Assembly (NCBI RefSeq): GCF_000151205.2
Contig: NC_016051.1
Span: forward strand, 806,001 to 870,000
Direction of reading: 5' to 3'
From: Thermococcus sp. AM4
GTDB taxonomy: Archaea; Methanobacteriota_B; Thermococci; Thermococcales; Thermococcaceae
Length of the DNA: 64,000 nucleotides
Shown here: piece after piece, positions 11,010 through 19,972 of the stretch
Layout: every line of letters starts with the position of its first letter
How positions within the stretch are numbered: position 1 is the first letter of the stretch
The notes under the pieces: model-generated
The model's input: only the letters and a program-made list of their open reading frames with translations
Databases searched by the model: none
What the model was told of the DNA's origin: nothing
Program-made: the position numbers and the translations under genes

Positions 11010-11369
11010 ATGGGGAAGAAGAGGTTCATCAGGGAAAGGGAGCAGAGGGAGAAGAAGAGGATCGCCCGGGAGAGGGTTGAGACGCTCTTCACGATGGCGG
11101 AGAGGGTGTTTCCGTACAGCAGGGAGCTGGCCAACAGGTACGTGGAGATAGCCCTCGCCGTCCAGCAGAAGGCGAAGATAAGGCTCCCGAGGAAGTGGAA
11201 GAGGCGGTACTGCAAGAGGTGCCACTCATTCCTCGTCCCCGGCGTCAACGCAAGGGTAAGGCTGAGGAGCCGGCCGTACCCCCACGTGGTCGTCAAGTGC
11301 CTTGAGTGCGGCCACATAATGCGCTATCCCTATCTGAGGGAGAAGAAGGAAGGCAGGAAAAAGTCCTAA
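11010..11369 (+). CDS. rnp4: RNase P protein component 4 (Rpp21/Rpr2)
   Basis: 119 residues. Rpp21 binds the RNase P RNA together with Rpp29 and helps 5' processing of tRNA precursors. The zinc site is formed by CKRC (after RKWKRRY) and CLEC (in VVKCLECGHIMRYP); the helical N-terminal region with FPYSRELANRYVEIA is typical. ATG 11010 follows GGTG by 6 nt, with that GGTG overlapping the previous stop. The stop overlaps that of the convergent HEAT-repeat gene by 4 nt. Confidence 0.93.
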   Translation: MGKKRFIREREQREKKRIARERVETLFTMAERVFPYSRELANRYVEIALAVQQKAKIRLPRKWKRRYCKRCHSFLVPGVNARVRLRSRPYPHVVVKCLECGHIMRYPYLREKKEGRKKS

Positions 11370-12121
11370 CCGCTTTCCTCCTCTGATTCGGCGAGGGCTA
11401 TCCTCATGAGGCCCTCCTTAACCTTCTCCATGACGAGTTCGCTGCGGTCGTTGAGTTCCTGGAACTTGACCTTGATGATCTTCCTGAACTTCGGGCTCTT
11501 GAGTGCCAGCTCCGTCAGCGTCTCGACGGCGCTTATCCTCACTATCTCGTTCCTGTCGTAGAGGAGTGACAGAAGCCTTGGAAGGAAAGGAGTGGCGTAG
11601 CGGGTCTGGTTTTCAGCGAGGGCGGAGATGAAGTTGAGGGCCGCGAGACGATCGGTCTCATCGGGAGAAGTCAGCATCGAGGCTATCTCCCTCGCTATGT
11701 TGCCGAGCAGCCTGGGATTGTTCCGCATGATCTCCTCGAGGACGTAGGCCATGTTTATCCTGATCTTCGGATCGCCGATGCGGTAGTTGGCGAGGATCAC
11801 CGGGACTGCGCCCCTGACGAGCTCGGGCTTGATCCTGGAGAGCACGCCGATGGCCCTCGCTATCTCAAGGGTAAGGGGTATCGCCTCGCTCTTCCGTATC
11901 ATCACGAGCAGCTTCCTGAGCAGGGGGTCGATCAACTCCTCATGATCCTCGATGACGTTCATTATTACTATCAGAGCGTTTTTCTGGACTATCCAGAGGT
12001 CGTCGTCGAGGTACTTTATCACCTGATCGAGGACGTCCTTGTCGTACGAGGCCCGGACTATAACCTCGTCAAGCTTCTCGCCCGTCGCGAGGGCCTCCCT
12101 AACGTCCAGCTCTTCCTCCAT
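11366..12121 (-). CDS. HEAT-repeat protein of the chemotaxis operon
   Basis: 251 residues, beginning MEEELDVREALATGEKL, made of about six helical HEAT-like repeats (for example KPELVRGAVPVILANYRIGD and DRNEIVRISAVETLTELALK). ATG 12121 is 6 nt after GGTG. It overlaps the end of the beta-propeller gene by 23 nt and so belongs to the cheY-cheA-cheC-cheF transcript. In Halobacterium salinarum a HEAT_PBS protein encoded beside the CheF (DUF439) proteins was found in the Che-archaellum interaction set; this neighbour may be a counterpart, inferred from context and repeat type, not from demonstrated homology. Confidence 0.78.
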   Translation of the reverse strand: MEEELDVREALATGEKLDEVIVRASYDKDVLDQVIKYLDDDLWIVQKNALIVIMNVIEDHEELIDPLLRKLLVMIRKSEAIPLTLEIARAIGVLSRIKPELVRGAVPVILANYRIGDPKIRINMAYVLEEIMRNNPRLLGNIAREIASMLTSPDETDRLAALNFISALAENQTRYATPFLPRLLSLLYDRNEIVRISAVETLTELALKSPKFRKIIKVKFQELNDRSELVMEKVKEGLMRIALAESEEESG

Positions 12122-13394
12122 GGGAACCACCCCTCACGGCAAAAGCAGCGAGCACGGACAGGAAAACGATGAAGGCCGGCCCGCAGATGCCCTTAGATTT
12201 TCCAATCTTTGACAGGTCCAGAACGTAGAAGTACGAGCTCCCAGTTCCAGCGACCACTAAGCTTCCATCGATCGCCAAGCTCCGGACGTAGCCAACGTTG
12301 AGGTCCTTCCAGAGAACCTTTCCGTTTTCCGGGTTTAGGACGTACAGGCCCCCCTCGCTGTAGATCTTCGTGACGTTGCCCTCTTTCCTGCTCTCGAACC
12401 TGCCGATTCCAACGACGAGCTTGCCGTCGCCGTAGGCGAGCGTTTTGGCCCTGTACGGGAAGTCCTCGCTCCAGAGGAGCTTCCTCTCCTTCAGGTCGTA
12501 GGCGGCCACCTTTCCGTTCCTTCCGTCGAAGCCCGAAACGTAGAGGGTGTCCCCAACGACGAGGAGATCCTCAACGAAGAACGTGCTCTCGTTCCACAGC
12601 ACGTGGCCCTCTCCATCGACCATCAGGAGGTAGCCCCGGGTGTTGTTGAAGCCCGTTCCCGCTATGGCCATGCCGTCCCAGACCTCCAGGTCCCTGACCC
12701 ACCAGCCGGTGCTGATGTTCCAAAGTAACCTGCCGTCGTAGGAAACGCCGTAGAGCGCGCCGAACTGGTAGTGGGCGGAGTATCCCGAGGGCAGGCCCGA
12801 GCCCACGTAAACGACATCCCCCACTCTAATTCTGCCCGGCATAGTGGGAAGCTTAACCCTCCAGCCGCCTTTGAGGGAGAGGCTTCCGTTGTCGAGGAGT
12901 CTGGCCTTGAAAACTTCCCCCGAACTGCTGAACGTGCCGTTGGTGTACCAGATGTCCCCATCCACTCCGTAGACGTAGCCGTCCCTCATGACGAAGTCGT
13001 ACAGCTTGTTGGGGGTTGGGAAGTTGGCCTTTATGCGGCCGTTCTTATCGAAGAACACGAAACCGCCGAGCCCCCCAGCGAGAACCCCGTTCCGGAGGGG
13101 CCGGATTTTAATCACGTAGCCCGAATCGTTCACCCAGAGCCTGCTCCCGTTGCTCGAATACGCGGCCATGAGGCCGAGGTAGTAGATCCCGATGAGCTCC
13201 TTTCCGGCGGTCATCCTGTAATCGCAGGCAGCGTAGATCGTGCCGTTTGAGATGGCAACCGCCTCTATGCTCTTCTGGTACGGGATGTTCTCTCCAACGG
13301 TCCCCTTGAACAGCAGGGGGTTCTCCTCCGCCATTACCGGCGCGAGAAATCCCAGCAAGAGCATCAAAGCCAGTCCAAGGGCTTTTCCCTTCAT
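12099..13394 (-). CDS. secreted membrane-anchored PQQ-like beta-propeller protein
   Basis: 431 residues. A signal peptide (residues 1-22, MKGKALGLALMLLLGF) is followed by repeated blades with the PQQ/quinoprotein-like pattern of VGDTLYVSG, DGKLVVGIG, NGKVLWK and LVVAGTGSSYFYVLDL, and a C-terminal membrane helix (GPAFIVFLSVLAAFAV). Several Asn-x-Thr/Ser sites suit an outside location. It overlaps cheF (ATGA at 13391-13394) and the HEAT gene, so it is cotranscribed with chemotaxis genes. It may be an extracellular ligand-binding or archaellum-associated element; no quinone or metal site is evident. Confidence 0.75.
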   Translation of the reverse strand: MKGKALGLALMLLLGFLAPVMAEENPLLFKGTVGENIPYQKSIEAVAISNGTIYAACDYRMTAGKELIGIYYLGLMAAYSSNGSRLWVNDSGYVIKIRPLRNGVLAGGLGGFVFFDKNGRIKANFPTPNKLYDFVMRDGYVYGVDGDIWYTNGTFSSSGEVFKARLLDNGSLSLKGGWRVKLPTMPGRIRVGDVVYVGSGLPSGYSAHYQFGALYGVSYDGRLLWNISTGWWVRDLEVWDGMAIAGTGFNNTRGYLLMVDGEGHVLWNESTFFVEDLLVVGDTLYVSGFDGRNGKVAAYDLKERKLLWSEDFPYRAKTLAYGDGKLVVGIGRFESRKEGNVTKIYSEGGLYVLNPENGKVLWKDLNVGYVRSLAIDGSLVVAGTGSSYFYVLDLSKIGKSKGICGPAFIVFLSVLAAFAVRGGSHGGRAGR

Positions 13395-14251
13395 CCTTCA
13401 CCGCCCTCCTTAAGTTTCCTTGCCAGGGGAGTTGGCTCCACGACCTTTCTTATGCCCTTAATCCGTAGGAGCCCCTTCCTTATCAAACTGTCGTAGATCC
13501 TCTCAACGTCGATTGGATCCATCCTCAGAACGCGCGGCACTTCAAGCGGGTCTATGCCCGTGAGCAGGGCATCGAGAACTTCCCTCTCAACGGGCTCAAG
13601 CTCTGGACACCGCAGCTCCCTTTCGAGCCAGGGGAACTCCCGGGAGAGATCCGCGAGGTAGCCCCATCTCAGAGGAGAAAAACGCTGGAGGTAGCGCAGA
13701 ACGAAGAGCCTGACCTTCCTCCCCTCGATCTTGACCTCGAATTCCTCCGTGCCATAGGGGGAGTGAACTCTAAGCCTCCACACGCCGTTCTCGCAGGAGG
13801 CCTCGCCCACCGAAGAGAAGCTTATCAGTCTCTCCCCCTCCTTCCCAACCGCTAAAAGACGCCCGGGCCCGATTACGCGCAGGTACGCAACATTCCAGTC
13901 TTCCCCGGGCTTCCGTACAAAGACCGGAACCCCGTTCAAAAGCTCAACGAAGATCCTGTGGATGAATGCCTCGAACTTTCCCCTGTCGTAGATTAGGGGG
14001 TTGTCCCCAACGCTCAGTATCAGAACTCGATCGTCTGAGAAGCGAAGGGTGAAGTTGGGCTCATCGCAGGGGAAAGGGGGAAGGAAACCGAGATCCTCGA
14101 GCAGGGAGAAGGAGAAGAAGTCCTCACCGAGCTTTCCATCCACGAATCTCATGGAAACGCCGCTGTGGCTTAAGGTGACCACGACCTCCCTTTTCCTGGT
14201 TCTCTTGCCGTCTCTGAGAACTTCAGCCCGGGCCCTCACCTCAGCGGGCAT
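13391..14251 (-). CDS. cheF: archaeal taxis protein CheF (DUF439)
   Basis: 286 residues from ATG 14251 (GGGGTTGAAT upstream), starting MPAEVRARAEVLRDG. The N-terminal two thirds are beta-rich with a PH-like strand pattern; the C-terminal region (EREVLDALLTGIDPLEVPRV onward) is a winged-helix-like helical segment. CheF proteins bind phospho-CheY and link it to the archaellum motor in archaea. The family call rests on this architecture and on its position directly after cheC. An upstream in-frame start at 14383 would run inside cheC and gives non-family sequence. The start overlaps the cheC stop by 11 nt. Confidence 0.75.
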   Translation of the reverse strand: MPAEVRARAEVLRDGKRTRKREVVVTLSHSGVSMRFVDGKLGEDFFSFSLLEDLGFLPPFPCDEPNFTLRFSDDRVLILSVGDNPLIYDRGKFEAFIHRIFVELLNGVPVFVRKPGEDWNVAYLRVIGPGRLLAVGKEGERLISFSSVGEASCENGVWRLRVHSPYGTEEFEVKIEGRKVRLFVLRYLQRFSPLRWGYLADLSREFPWLERELRCPELEPVEREVLDALLTGIDPLEVPRVLRMDPIDVERIYDSLIRKGLLRIKGIRKVVEPTPLARKLKEGGEG

Positions 14252-14846
14252 ATTCAACCCCCCTGGACCGCCTAAAGGTTCTCCTGAAGGGCTCGGGGTG
14301 CTCGGCCAGTTTCTCGATAAAGCCAGCGGAGGGGATGATGTAGACGTCAAGATTACTCCCGTGATCGTCGTGCACCAGCCCAACGAAGACGGGAAGTCTC
14401 TTTCCTCCTCCGAGGAAGTTCAGGATCCTTTCGAGCTGATCAACGGTTTTTATAGGAAAGGGCACGCTGGGAAGGAGATCGTAGCCCATGATGTTCGAGA
14501 GCCTGCTGGCAAACTGGCCGGCTATGACGTTGCCCATCTCCCTGAGAAGGGACTCCATGAGATCCCTTATGTCGTAAGTTTCGAGAATTCCGGTCTTTTT
14601 CAGCTTCAGGAGGCGGCTCACGATGGCGGAGGAGTTCTCGAAGTCGAAGGCCATTATGAGTTCCGGGCCCTCACCTATGGCAAAGCCCACTAAACTGACG
14701 CCCTCTAAGAGACCTTCAATGACCAGATCTGAGGACGAGATAACGCGGAACTCGGAGAGCTCCATCTTGCCGCTCGGATCGATTTTGGCAAGCGACTCTC
14801 TGAGGGCGATCTCAAGCAGCTCCCTCACGAGGTTAACCCTTCTCAC
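14241..14846 (-). CDS. cheC: CheC/CheX-type CheY-P phosphatase
   Basis: 201 residues from GTG 14846, overlapping the cheA stop by 14 nt. The family motif LLREMGNVIAGQF (E-x2-N, the CheY-P dephosphorylation site) is near residues 100-112. I see only one such site, unlike two-site CheC proteins. A beta-strand region VYIIPSAGF and a charged tail complete it. It probably resets phospho-CheY signalling. No CheD partner is present in the window. Confidence 0.82.
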   Translation of the reverse strand: MRRVNLVRELLEIALRESLAKIDPSGKMELSEFRVISSSDLVIEGLLEGVSLVGFAIGEGPELIMAFDFENSSAIVSRLLKLKKTGILETYDIRDLMESLLREMGNVIAGQFASRLSNIMGYDLLPSVPFPIKTVDQLERILNFLGGGKRLPVFVGLVHDDHGSNLDVYIIPSAGFIEKLAEHPEPFRRTFRRSRGVEYAR

Positions 14847-17064
14847 GCAGCAACCCCTCCATAAGACTGATCAGATCAATAAGCGGAACCGGCTCATTGC
14901 CCCCCAGTATTATCACCCCGGTGAACACGCTCTCCTCGGGCTCGCCGAAGGGAACCAGAGAACGGAGCGACCTGACAACCGTCTCCCTCTCCCCGAGAAT
15001 TCTATCAACGAGCACGAGCACCTTTTCCCGTCCCTCACGGTCGAACTGGAAGAGGAGCCCCTCAACCTCCCCCTCCGGCAGGGGGGCGAAGTCTTCAACC
15101 ACATCATGGAGAAGGACAGCCGGGAAAATCCCCGACTCAACGGCCGCGACGTAGACACCTCCAACCTTTCTGACGCTCTCCACTCCAAGTCTGAACTTGC
15201 CGAGCACCCCTATTGAGGGGACGGCGTATTTCTTTCCCCCGACCTCGACGGTGTAAACCCGAAGGATCAGCACATCAGCAGGAACCCTCAGCGTTATCAC
15301 AGTGCCCCTGCCCTCCTCGCTGCTCACGTGGACGCTGCCGTGAAGTTCCCTGATGGACTCCATGACCACGCTCAGCCCAAAGCCCCGCCCGCTCTCCTCG
15401 GAAACCTCCCTCTCGGTGCTCATTCCAGGCCTGAATATCAGCATGAGCGCCTCCTTCCGGGAAAGCCTCTTGGCTTCCTCCGGCGTTATTATGCCCCTTT
15501 CAACGGCCCTTTTCTTGACCTCAGCGATGTTGATGCCCCTGCCATCGTCCCTAACGCTGATCTCAACGTAGCTCGGATGAGGGACGATTGTTATCTCAAT
15601 GAGCCCCTCCGGTGGCTTCCCGAGTCTGACCCTCTCCTCAGTCCTTTCAATACCGTGAATAACTGCGTTTCTGAGTATGTGCACGAGGGCCTCCCAGACG
15701 ACGGCGGCAACGGCCCTATCGACGGCGACGTCTTCTCCAATGATAACGACCCCAACCCGCTTCCCCCTCTCTTCGGCCAGCTTCTTGATCGAGGGGACCA
15801 GTTCCTCTATCCTGTTCTTTAGCCTCACCGTCCGCATGGACGTTACCGTCTCCCTCAGCCTCTGCACGGCCTCCGAAAGTTTGTTGCTCAGTTCCACCAT
15901 CTGTTCCGGGCCACAGTCGCCGGAAACAACGTCCCTCAGCCATTCCTCTATTGCAACGAGCTCGCCGAGGGAGTAGAGGAGCTCGTCCAGGGCGGAGACA
16001 TCAACGGGAACCGTCCTTTTCCGAGTCCTGATTGGAGAGGGTCTAAAGGCGTTCTCTGGGAGCGATCTCGTCTCCATGAAATCCTCATCCAGCCCCTCGA
16101 CCCTGATCACGTCCTTAACCCAGGGGTGGCGGAGGATAAGCTCCCTGATCTTCTCGAAGGGCATGTTGCTTTCAAGAAGAACCTCAAAGAAACCCTCGCC
16201 GAGAAGCGTACCTTCCCTTATCTCCTTCTCAGGGGGCTTCACCGATAGGAGCCTACCCGCCTTCCTGAGGTCCTGGATGATAAGAAGCGCCCGTGCAGCC
16301 TTAAAAGGAGTCTCCTCTGTAAGGTAAACCCTGAGCCGGAGCCTTTCTCCTTTCCCTCCGTTTTGTCCTTCATGTCCCTGCACCTCCACCTTCCTGACAC
16401 CGTTCACGGAGCCAAGCTCTTCCCTTATTTCATCGGGGCTTAATGGAGTCTCAATGACCAGTTTGAGCCTTTCCCCGGGTTTGACCCTGCCCTCTATGAT
16501 GTCGCTGACGTCGGGATCAGAGGAGACCAAACGGCCCAGTCTTTGAAGTTTGGACAGAACCGCGAAGGTCCACACCGGGATCTTCTCGGGCACGGGTTCA
16601 AAGTCCACCGTCACCTCGTACCTCCTCTCCAGCGCAACCTTCAGTGGGGGAAGCCTTCCGGCCTTTCTGGAGGCGTTTTTGAGGTAGAGCGTGGCCTTCG
16701 CTATCACTGGGGAGAGCTCAACTTCCCTCTCGTCCCCGAAGTCCTCGATCGAGTGTATGAGCCTGTCAATCGTGACGATGAGCTCCCAGATTATGGAGAG
16801 AAGCTCCTCGTCGGGGGAGAGGTCCCCTGCGCGTATCATGTCCAGAATCGTCTCAAGCCAGTGGGCGGCTTGGGTGAGCTTTGGAAACCCCGCCAGAGAG
16901 GCCGTTCCTTTAACGGTGTGGGCACTTCGTATCATATCCTCAACGGTTTTCGAGAGGTTTTCCTCCTCACCCCTAAGCCGGGAAAAAAGCTCTTTGAGTT
17001 CGGCGACCTTCTCCTTTGCCTCCTCCAGGAAACTCTCGATGTAGTTTGTCCCGATGACGCCCAC
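14833..17064 (-). CDS. cheA: chemotaxis histidine kinase CheA
   Basis: 743 residues from GTG 17064. Domains in order: Hpt P1 with phospho-acceptor His49 in SAHTVKGTA; two P2-like ferredoxin-fold segments (about residues 140-225 and 240-330) that should bind response regulators; dimerisation helices (about 350-430); HATPase core with N box HILRNAVIHGIE, G1 DDGRGIN and G2 GRGFGLS; and a CheW-like P5 domain to the end. It transfers phosphate to CheY in response to receptors, none of which lie in this window. Cotranscription with cheY is likely, across an 83-nt gap that contains an 11-bp inverted repeat. Confidence 0.95.
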   Translation of the reverse strand: MGVIGTNYIESFLEEAKEKVAELKELFSRLRGEEENLSKTVEDMIRSAHTVKGTASLAGFPKLTQAAHWLETILDMIRAGDLSPDEELLSIIWELIVTIDRLIHSIEDFGDEREVELSPVIAKATLYLKNASRKAGRLPPLKVALERRYEVTVDFEPVPEKIPVWTFAVLSKLQRLGRLVSSDPDVSDIIEGRVKPGERLKLVIETPLSPDEIREELGSVNGVRKVEVQGHEGQNGGKGERLRLRVYLTEETPFKAARALLIIQDLRKAGRLLSVKPPEKEIREGTLLGEGFFEVLLESNMPFEKIRELILRHPWVKDVIRVEGLDEDFMETRSLPENAFRPSPIRTRKRTVPVDVSALDELLYSLGELVAIEEWLRDVVSGDCGPEQMVELSNKLSEAVQRLRETVTSMRTVRLKNRIEELVPSIKKLAEERGKRVGVVIIGEDVAVDRAVAAVVWEALVHILRNAVIHGIERTEERVRLGKPPEGLIEITIVPHPSYVEISVRDDGRGINIAEVKKRAVERGIITPEEAKRLSRKEALMLIFRPGMSTEREVSEESGRGFGLSVVMESIRELHGSVHVSSEEGRGTVITLRVPADVLILRVYTVEVGGKKYAVPSIGVLGKFRLGVESVRKVGGVYVAAVESGIFPAVLLHDVVEDFAPLPEGEVEGLLFQFDREGREKVLVLVDRILGERETVVRSLRSLVPFGEPEESVFTGVIILGGNEPVPLIDLISLMEGLLREKG

Positions 17065-17074
17065 CCCCGTAAAG

Positions 17075-17145
17075 GGCCGGCCGGGCGGTGGATCCCTGGA
17101 ACCCTGGCCCTATCGTCCTTCTCAGTCTCACTCCCCCGGCCGGCC
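17075..17145. repeat. GC-rich 11-bp inverted repeat between cheY and cheA
   Basis: Perfect arms GGCCGGCCGGG at 17075-17085 and CCCGGCCGGCC at 17135-17145 enclose 49 nt and fill almost all of the space between cheY and cheA. In RNA they would form a strong stem just before the cheA start, which could be an mRNA processing, attenuation or stability element. Confidence 0.75.
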
Positions 17146-17147
17146 GC

Positions 17148-17516
17148 CTATTCCTGGCCCGACAGTACTCTCTCGACCTCCTTGAGCACCTGTGAGGGTT
17201 CAAAGGGTTTGACTATATAACCGGACGCCCCGGCCTCGATGCATTCTATAAGCTTCTTATCGCTGTCCACGGAGGTTATCATGATAACCTTGGCGTTGGG
17301 GTCGATCTTTTTTATCTCCCTCAGGGCTGTTATGCCGTCCATGTCGGGCATTATTATGTCGAGGGTAACGATATCGGGGCGGAGCTTCGAGTATAGCTCA
17401 ACCGCTTCCTTACCCGTTGAGGCTTCTCCCACCACCTCATGCCCCGCCTCGGTGAATATTTTCCTGAGCAGGATCCTTGCGAAGAGCGCGTCGTCAACTA
17501 TCAGTACTCGCGCCAT
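17148..17516 (-). CDS. cheY: chemotaxis response regulator CheY
   Basis: 122 residues, a single receiver domain. The acidic pair is in LIVDDALF, phospho-acceptor Asp in TLDIIMPDMDG (near residue 54), Thr in MITSVD and Lys in IVKPFEP. No output domain. Phospho-CheY acts on the archaellum motor through CheF in archaea. ATG 17516 follows GGAGGGAC. It is the first gene of the minus-strand chemotaxis operon. Confidence 0.95.
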   Translation of the reverse strand: MARVLIVDDALFARILLRKIFTEAGHEVVGEASTGKEAVELYSKLRPDIVTLDIIMPDMDGITALREIKKIDPNAKVIMITSVDSDKKLIECIEAGASGYIVKPFEPSQVLKEVERVLSGQE

Positions 17517-17560
17517 CGTCCCTCCCTCTAAACTGTGTTTTTCGTAAACTAAAACCCTTA

Positions 17561-17585
17561 TGTGTAGGTAATTGTGTAGCTACAC
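17561..17585 (-). promoter_or_regulatory. CTACA repeats upstream of cheY
   Basis: On the minus strand TAGCTACACA and TACCTACACA are spaced exactly 12 bp; the first forms a perfect palindrome GTGTAGCTACAC (17574-17585). The same core at the same period precedes the first archaellin gene (19216-19249). The block sits just upstream of the likely TATA region (about 17543-17552), the usual place for an archaeal activator. Confidence 0.65.
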
Positions 17586-17663: not shown

Positions 17664-18638
17664 TCAGGGCATGAGGGTCACTCTCAGCAGGCTGCGACCG
17701 AGGGGTTCTATGGAGACGTCGAAGCCGTTGCCTTCGATAGCCCTGATGACCTCCTCCCTCCGGGGGAAGCCCACAAAGTCCTTGTTCAGCCTCTCGAAGA
17801 ACTCCAGGGCCTCGATGTGTCTGAACTCCTCTCTGAAGGGCTCAAGGATAATCAGCCGTCCACCGGGTTTGAGGGTTTCCAGAGTTCTCTTCAGAACCCT
17901 GCCGTAGTCCTCGGGCTTCAGGTACTCCAAGAGATAGCTTATAACCGCAACGTCGTATTCGTTTACGGGCCGTATCAGGCGGACGTCGAGCTCTTTCAGC
18001 TCAACGGGGAGGTTGTCCATCTCAGCGCGGCTCCTCGCTATCTCCAGGATCGCGGAGGAGTAATCAACTCCGGTGTAGAAGCCATCGTAACCCACGATTC
18101 TTCCGAAGTAACTGGGCGCGGCCGATCCGCAGCCGAGATCAAGCACGCTCATCCCCGGTCTGAGTTCCGCAGCGGCTGAGATGGCTTTTCTGTAAAGATC
18201 CGCGAAGTCCGTGGTCATCCTTATATCCCAGAAATCAGCATCTTTGTCGAAGTCCATGAGCACGTGGGGATGCGTTGGCGTTATGAACGCGTAGTCTACC
18301 ATCCTGTATATCTCCTCAAGCGTTGAAACCCATCCGGGTAAAAGCGTATCGTAGTGCTCCTGCGGGACCTTCAGCGTGTAGGAGAACCCGTTGAGCTTTA
18401 ACCTGCCCTCGTGCTCCTCGGCAATACCTATGGCCTTCAGGGTGTCCAGAAACTCAAGGAGTAGCCTTCTGTTCGGTATGCCAACGGAATCGAGGACTTC
18501 CCTGTGAGTTGGCTCCCTTGAAAGGACCTTGAAAATGCCGTGCTTTGTGCCGAGCTGTATTATGTGGAGTATCGCCATCCTGACCATCTGCTCGATGTTG
18601 GAATCGACCACTGGAACGAGCCTTTCCAAGCTGTCCAT
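17664..18638 (-). CDS. SAM-dependent methyltransferase with N-terminal winged helix
   Basis: 324 residues from ATG 18638 (6 nt after GGTG), beginning MDSLERLVPVVD. The first 100 residues resemble the dimerising winged-helix domain of O-methyltransferase-like proteins; the Rossmann SAM-binding motif VLDLGCGSAAPSYFGRI is near residue 165, followed by VDYSSAILE and the late strand GGRLIILEPF. It starts 10 nt after earA ends, so it is probably cotranscribed with the archaellum regulator. That placement between chemotaxis and archaellum genes suggests motility-related methylation, but the substrate is unknown. Confidence 0.8.
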   Translation of the reverse strand: MDSLERLVPVVDSNIEQMVRMAILHIIQLGTKHGIFKVLSREPTHREVLDSVGIPNRRLLLEFLDTLKAIGIAEEHEGRLKLNGFSYTLKVPQEHYDTLLPGWVSTLEEIYRMVDYAFITPTHPHVLMDFDKDADFWDIRMTTDFADLYRKAISAAAELRPGMSVLDLGCGSAAPSYFGRIVGYDGFYTGVDYSSAILEIARSRAEMDNLPVELKELDVRLIRPVNEYDVAVISYLLEYLKPEDYGRVLKRTLETLKPGGRLIILEPFREEFRHIEALEFFERLNKDFVGFPRREEVIRAIEGNGFDVSIEPLGRSLLRVTLMP

Positions 18639-18648
18639 GCCGACCACC

Positions 18649-18984
18649 TCACATGAACTTCCTGTAATACCTGTAGTATTCCTTGAGGTATTCAACCACC
18701 TGCCTTCCGTACTCGGTGAGCCTGTAGTACTTGAAGCCGCCGTTGGTTATTTCCTCGACGAGACCGAGGTAGACGAGGGAGCTTTCGCCGTTGTAGCGGT
18801 TTCCCAGTCCGACCAGGGCCCCCCGAACGTTCGATGGATCGGACCCAACAACCCTGGCGATCTCAGAAAGGTACGTTGCCGACGGGTATATTTCATTCAG
18901 GTACAGAAGAATTCTCTTCCTCAGTTCACTCCTGTGGAGGGATCTTAATACCTGCGGGTCTATGATCATTGTCCTTACGGCCAT
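18649..18984 (-). CDS. earA: archaellum transcriptional regulator EarA-like winged-helix protein
   Basis: 111 residues. A helix-turn-helix (ATYLSEIARVVGSDPSNVRGAL) is followed by a wing (GLVEEITNGGFKYYRLTEYG) and an aromatic, charged tail. Its size, its divergent position directly upstream of the archaellin operon and its MarR/wHTH type fit EarA, the euryarchaeal activator of archaellum transcription. ATG 18984 follows GGTGGGGGAG. A TATA box about 100 bp upstream (19082-19092) predicts a long leader. Confidence 0.75.
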   Translation of the reverse strand: MAVRTMIIDPQVLRSLHRSELRKRILLYLNEIYPSATYLSEIARVVGSDPSNVRGALVGLGNRYNGESSLVYLGLVEEITNGGFKYYRLTEYGRQVVEYLKEYYRYYRKFM

Positions 18985-19215: not shown

Positions 19216-19278
19216 CACCTACATATGCACCTACATAACCAGCTACACCACTAAGAACAAAAAAGTGCTTTATATCCA
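19216..19278 (+). promoter_or_regulatory. archaellin operon promoter with three 12-bp-period repeats
   Basis: CACCTACATA at 19216-19225, again at 19228-19237, and CAGCTACACC at 19240-19249 form three direct repeats with a period of exactly 12 bp. A TATA box (gctttatatcc, about 19268-19277) follows about 20 bp later. Transcription should begin near 19297, giving a short leader with GGGGGTG before the first archaellin start. The repeats are the likely binding site of EarA. Confidence 0.7.
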
Positions 19279-19324
19279 AAGCTTGTAATCATTAATGCAA
19301 ACAACCCCAGGGGGTGCATGGCTG

Positions 19325-19972
19325 ATGAAGGCCAAGAGCAGAAGAGGTGCGGTTGGTATTGGAACCTTGATTGTGTTTATAGCGATGGTGCTAGTGGCGG
19401 CAGTGGCTGCAGCAGTGCTCATTAACACGAGCGGCTTCCTCCAGCAGAAGGCCTCCAGCACCGGCAGACAGAGCACCGAACAAGTCGCCAGCGGAATACA
19501 GGTCATGAAAGTTACGGGCCATGTCAGCAGCGGAAAGATCGACAAGCTCGCTATCTACGTCGCCCCAAACGCGGGCAGCTCGGGCATTGACCTCAGCAAT
19601 ACCAAGCTTATACTCAGCAACGGAACAGTTCAGGCAGTTCTCAAGTACTCAGGAACCTATGCAAACGCAAGCAGTGATATATTCTCTGGAACGGTCTGGC
19701 CAGACCCAGCTACTGATGCGACTAAGTTTGGCCTTATAGTCGTCCAGGACTACGACGGCTCGCTCTGGAAGAGCCCGAGCACTCCAACACTCAACGCCGG
19801 AGACATAGCTATCCTCGCTGTTACCGTAGGAGGAACTAACGCAATATTCGGCAATGGAATTCCAGTGAGGACCCACATAACTGGCAAAGTAGTTCCGGAG
19901 TTTGGTGCCCCAGGCGTCATCGACTTCACAACCCCAAGCACCTACACCTCAGATATAGTGAACCTGCAGTGA
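19325..19972 (+). CDS. flaB1: archaellin (preflagellin) 1
   Basis: 215 residues from ATG 19325, preceded by GGTG with an 8-nt gap; the upstream ATG at 19295 would give an unusually long leader peptide. The short class III signal MKAKSRRG ends in Gly before [20 protein letters not shown], the site cut by the preflagellin peptidase (ArlK), which is not in the window. The hydrophobic helix builds the filament core; the rest is the variable outer domain. The first third is identical at DNA level to flaB2. Confidence 0.93.
19364..19505 (+). repeat. 142-bp block identical between archaellins 1 and 2
   Basis: 19364-19505 is identical to 20029-20170 (offset 665). A second identical block of 51 bp lies near the 3' ends (19898-19948 and 20587-20637). 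Intervening parts differ markedly, which points to gene conversion or selection on the helical core and C terminus. Confidence 0.85.

Follow-up and report, generated by a model that had tools for sequence, protein, structure and literature searches.

Does the CTACA repeat in front of cheY at this locus place the chemotaxis genes under the regulator that controls the archaellum (arl) operon? The window, by which we mean the whole analysed stretch of 64,000 nucleotides, covers positions 806001–870000 of a single-contig, 2.09-Mb genome of Thermococcales type. It holds a che cluster, the first archaellin gene of the arl operon and, close to both, earA, the presumed activator (Table 1). The evidence set out below makes it very likely that one regulator, probably EarA, turns on swimming and steering together.

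The forward strand at window positions 17561–17585 reads TGTGTAGGTAATTGTGTAGCTACAC, and its reverse complement, GTGTAGCTACACAATTACCTACACA, includes TAGCTACACA and TACCTACACA, whose units begin at an offset of exactly 12 bp. The repeat is located between the methyltransferase gene and cheY. On the minus strand, positions 17562–17581 read AGCTACAC-N4-ACCTACAC, immediately 5′ of cheY and its TATA-like element, which looks weak; the CTACA repeat with a 12-bp period claimed in the sequence-only reading could be read directly. The identity of this spacing with that of the archaellin promoter, also claimed there, holds as well: the three units at 19217–19248, which are ACCTACAT-ACCTACAT-AGCTACAC in order, are likewise 12 bp apart. 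Both cheY units fit the EarA-operator unit A[CG][CG]TACA[CT]. Absent from the earlier reading was the observation that the upstream cheY unit is one arm of the 12-bp palindrome GTGTAGCTACAC; the GTGTA of the opposite, inverted arm is also kept in seven diverged cheY promoters. The BRE/TATA-like sequence of cheY, AAGGGTTTTAG, differs from the arl TATA.

Table 1. Coordinates of genes and promoter features in the window
Feature	Position	Strand	Remarks
cheY	17148..17516	-	PF00072 8e-32; first gene of the che cluster
cheA	14833..17064	-	Hpt, P2, dimerisation, HATPase and CheW domains
cheC/cheX-like gene	14241..14846	-	weak match
330-aa conserved protein, che cluster	13391..14383	-	neighbour kept in two relatives
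earA, presumed activator	18649..18984	-	PF07381 1e-32
methyltransferase gene between earA and cheY	17664..18695	-	same place in relatives
arlB, first archaellin gene of arl operon	19295..19972	+	PF01917 4e-44
upstream unit AGCTACAC of cheY promoter	17574..17581	-	
downstream unit ACCTACAC	17562..17569	-	12 bp from upstream unit; abuts BRE position
12-bp palindrome GTGTAGCTACAC	17574..17585	.	
apparently weak BRE/TATA-like element ATAAGGGTTTTAG	17549..17561	-	core AAG-GTTTTAG conserved (cheY promoter alignment)
three tandem units before arlB	19217..19248	+	starts 19217, 19229, 19241; 12-bp period
TATA box TTTATAT	19269..19275	+	28 bp from start of nearest unit

The che cluster (window 11366–17516) also encodes a PQQ-repeat protein and a HEAT-repeat protein beside the 330-aa protein, for which no Pfam or NCBIfam match was found; the order of these three genes is identical in two relatives. 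Despite the presence of CheY, CheA and a CheC-like protein, no protein in the whole genome matched the chemoreceptor signalling domain PF00015, and CheW was found nowhere in the genome except as the domain of CheA itself.

The specificity of the repeat was assessed in the window, in the genome and in 94 genomes, genome-wide scoring consisting of pattern searches plus 400 kb of genome stretches. CTACA-N7-CTACA occurred five times in the window, against 0.03 occurrences expected from shuffles: once at cheY, twice in overlap at the archaellin promoter, and twice within genes (25091 and 36754), the last two being set aside as regulatory sites because they are intragenic. As a genome-wide detector the bare pair was rejected as not specific (13 matches, and 11 for the reversed control). 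The full pair, ASSTACAY-N4-ASSTACAY, was matched exactly at four sites in the 2.09-Mb genome, and its reversed control at none; the four lie at cheY, at arlB (two, overlapping) and at an intergenic site at genome position 597045. Pairs with two mismatches fell nearly all in coding sequence and were treated as chance. Across the 94 genomes, the exact full pair was about ten times commoner than its reversed control and occupied 122 places, 72 near earA or arl, 9 at che and 41 elsewhere. The 41 include promoters of chemoreceptor genes of three kinds (membrane, PilJ-type and soluble), of a gene for a Vps4-like AAA ATPase and of a gene here called MLLTRHA, together with archaellin promoters without earA found nearby and a few intragenic sites. 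The many non-motility matches that the sequence-only reading had named as damaging to its idea were not seen in these genomes, the exact matches lying mostly at arl, che and chemoreceptor promoters alongside a few other recurrent targets.

For examination of the che promoters of relatives, a weight matrix was built solely from 22 arl promoters of related genomes. All of the 30 che promoters tested first scored between 19.6 and 30.8 bits with this matrix; among 3320 windows taken from 400 kb of this genome, just three sites exceeded 12.2 bits, all in stretches picked for already-known matches. With weaker matches counted, 37 of the 39 che operon starts examined in Thermococcales had the element (at least 19.6 bits). 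Two non-orthologous promoter types bear it, cheY-first and cheR-first; in other Thermococcales cheY sits within a cheR-first operon, and the element is found 5′ of cheR. Eight genomes share the arrangement of the window, with the cheY promoter following the methyltransferase gene, and all eight keep the pair. Alignment of seven cheY promoters gave a conserved block, GTGTA-CTACAYA...ACCTACAC..AAG-GTTTTAG, between diverged intergenic flanks; the pair is conserved in position and spacing while the flanking sequence diverges. Only two basal genomes have a che promoter without the element, though EarA is present in both and their arl regions keep arl-type units.

The matrix trained on arl alone, the 37 of 39 che starts and the shared targets therefore support the regulon idea. 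The shared regulator proposed in the sequence-only reading gains from the high score of cheY with the arl-only matrix, from recurrence of the motif at cheR and chemoreceptor genes, and from T. kodakarensis transcriptomes, in which fla, che and two receptor genes move together (PMC8643681, PMC8155482). Its further remark, that such a regulon is not evident from gene order, carries little weight here because earA, che and arl adjoin in the window, but stands for genomes in which che lies elsewhere.

Promoter geometry was compared across the target classes. The start of a unit lies 26–28 bp before a TATA-like element in the majority of the arl, cheY, cheR, ATPase and DUF835 promoters, and the 12-bp unit spacing is common to arl, cheY, cheR and ATPase promoters. 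The promoters of the membrane MCP genes have the motif in reverse orientation and at a greater distance from the TATA, a point against the EarA reading. The cheY arrangement is like that of the Thermococcales arlB0 operator assigned to EarA in Pyrococcus, in which one to three copies of A[CG][CG]TACA[CT] lie 5′ of the BRE/TATA (PMC10665913); that operator, however, was described at arlB0 only, che promoters not being treated, and its nearest unit is 9 nt from the BRE, whereas that of cheY abuts it. In this respect cheY resembles Methanococcus maripaludis, in which the EarA sites, repeated TACA-core units at the fla promoter, stand immediately upstream of the BRE and fla transcription needs EarA (PMC5512572). 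The M. maripaludis promoter differs in its shorter, 6-bp consensus, TACATA (cited in PMC10665913), and in its four sites, and no che control was reported for it in the literature found.

On these grounds we consider it probable that the repeat is an EarA operator and that EarA switches on cheY–cheA–cheC jointly with the arl operon. Sites, spacing, conservation and targets are shown here, while the need for EarA at arl and the co-expression of fla and che are taken from the literature; that EarA is what binds the che sites we infer. In the mechanism that we propose, EarA, encoded about 1.1 kb upstream, would contact one face of the DNA at the CTACA units, which are arranged in tandem and are in part palindromic, and, positioned beside a weak BRE/TATA, would recruit TFB. 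Recruitment of TFB would then turn on cheY–cheA–cheC along with the arl operon. Among related Thermococcales this operator may widen the regulon to the cheR-first operon, chemoreceptor genes, the Vps4-like ATPase and the DUF835 protein.

The strongest alternative is that che, the extra targets or both answer to a second regulator of similar sequence specificity, with EarA serving arl only. Four genomes (G020, G027, G041 and G049) have no detectable EarA and nevertheless retain the element, though in degraded form in G027, at DUF835 and/or other non-arl genes; persistence of DUF835 or MLLTRHA sites in such genomes would suit a second regulator, as would the two basal EarA-bearing genomes without a che site. 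Sites in EarA-lacking genomes may reflect another binding factor, recent loss of EarA or, as in the fragmented G049, an assembly gap. EarA, on the other hand, is the sole PF07381 match in this genome, the arl-only matrix recovers che, and EarA was found in every che-bearing genome with a full-length cheY match, although this co-occurrence could merely reflect a requirement of taxis for archaella. An unrelated factor of identical specificity is also less parsimonious, and we regard a second regulator as unlikely. A scan of genome contigs with EarA returned matches in Thermococcales only, and no credible relative of EarA was found among solved structures.

A second alternative comes from T. kodakarensis, in which Villain 2021 (PMC8643681) found TTTGTGTABSTGBTTATGTAGGT before fla, che, two MCP, AAA ATPase and flavoprotein genes. 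The reverse complement of this 23-bp motif, ACCTACATAAVCASVTACACAAA, is the 12-bp tandem found here, and its targets (fla, che, two MCPs, AAA ATPase) overlap ours; by hand comparison, the cheY site of the window agrees with it at 18 of 23 positions and the cheR site of L073, probably T. kodakarensis itself to judge by its gene positions, at 22 of 23. The motif was called of unclear function, EarA was unmentioned, and the study, unlike ours, concerned one species and named neither the cheY-first promoter type nor DUF835. It marks the genes most gyrase-induced and most histone-mutant-repressed, with fla, che and two MCPs co-deregulated, and a sensitivity to topology was put forward as speculation; fla and che also drop together in T. 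kodakarensis histone mutants (Sanders 2021, PMC8155482). The element might, accordingly, give the response to supercoiling and histones without any dedicated activator. We think this very unlikely, since the unit fits the arlB0 motif assigned to EarA, archaellation is abolished on deletion of EarA in Pyrococcus furiosus (Stockl 2023, PMC10665913), and conserved bases, fixed 12-bp spacing and a near-fixed TATA distance are what a protein-binding site would show; effects of topology could be superimposed on those of EarA. Chance likeness of short AC-rich repeats, for which the near parity of the bare pair with its reversed control genome-wide might speak, is refuted by the excess of the full pair over its control, the conserved block in diverged intergenic DNA and the 37 of 39 che promoters, and deserves practically no credence.

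Further candidate targets of EarA were then considered. The DUF835 gene (1109884 in this genome; locus 1109807–1110336, L144, L265–L292) encodes a single-domain protein of 150 aa and co-occurs with cheY in the genus. Nearly all of its 28 orthologs have the element, usually with one unit 26–28 bp before the TATA. By raw counts that ignore shared ancestry, 22 of 24 che-bearing genomes of the genus possess the gene, against 5 of 37 that lack che. From sequence, its product is a candidate new taxis component.

The Vps4-like AAA ATPase gene (loci L154–L156, L161, L164, L168, L170 and L193–L201), divergent from a serS-looking gene, has the element in nine Thermococcus genomes; eight orthologs of another genus, and the paralogs, are without it. 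The MLLTRHA gene (genome 597045, L014; elsewhere L097, L100, L102, L169, L174 and L223–L252) has the motif in a minority of genomes, often in palindromic form and also in two genomes without EarA; in several genomes it lies divergently to a gene for a DUF5658 membrane protein. At genome 241177 (L001, L136), a motif pair followed by an arl-like AACAAAAAAGCTTATATAG promoter lies between two convergent genes. With no evident ORF and no Rfam match, this site was not retained as a gene promoter, and it is possible that it serves a small RNA; Rfam gave no match at three motif loci.

The link is in part already known, as both the motif shared by fla, che and MCP promoters of T. kodakarensis and, for Pyrococcus, the attribution of its archaellin copy to EarA are published. 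The accessible text of Stockl 2023 (PMC10665913) uses Villain solely as a source of RNA-seq data; it describes directly EarA-regulated genes as still to be identified and urges a knockout transcriptome, especially in chemotactic species. In the openly accessible literature searched, no paper linking motif, EarA and che was found, nor any experiment on EarA at che promoters. The element thus likely extends the regulon of a known regulator, through a link partly published for one species. We lean, by a little, towards the wider view that EarA is the master switch of a Thermococcales swimming-and-sensing regulon that takes in arl, both types of che operon, chemoreceptors, the Vps4-like ATPase and, with a role in taxis, the DUF835 protein, which would account for the published supercoiling- and chromatin-responsive motif. 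The conserved sites provide a concrete target list for the EarA regulon, offer an explanation for the joint fla, che and receptor shifts in two T. kodakarensis transcriptomes whose common motif had stayed unexplained, and point to the unstudied DUF835 protein as a likely component of taxis.
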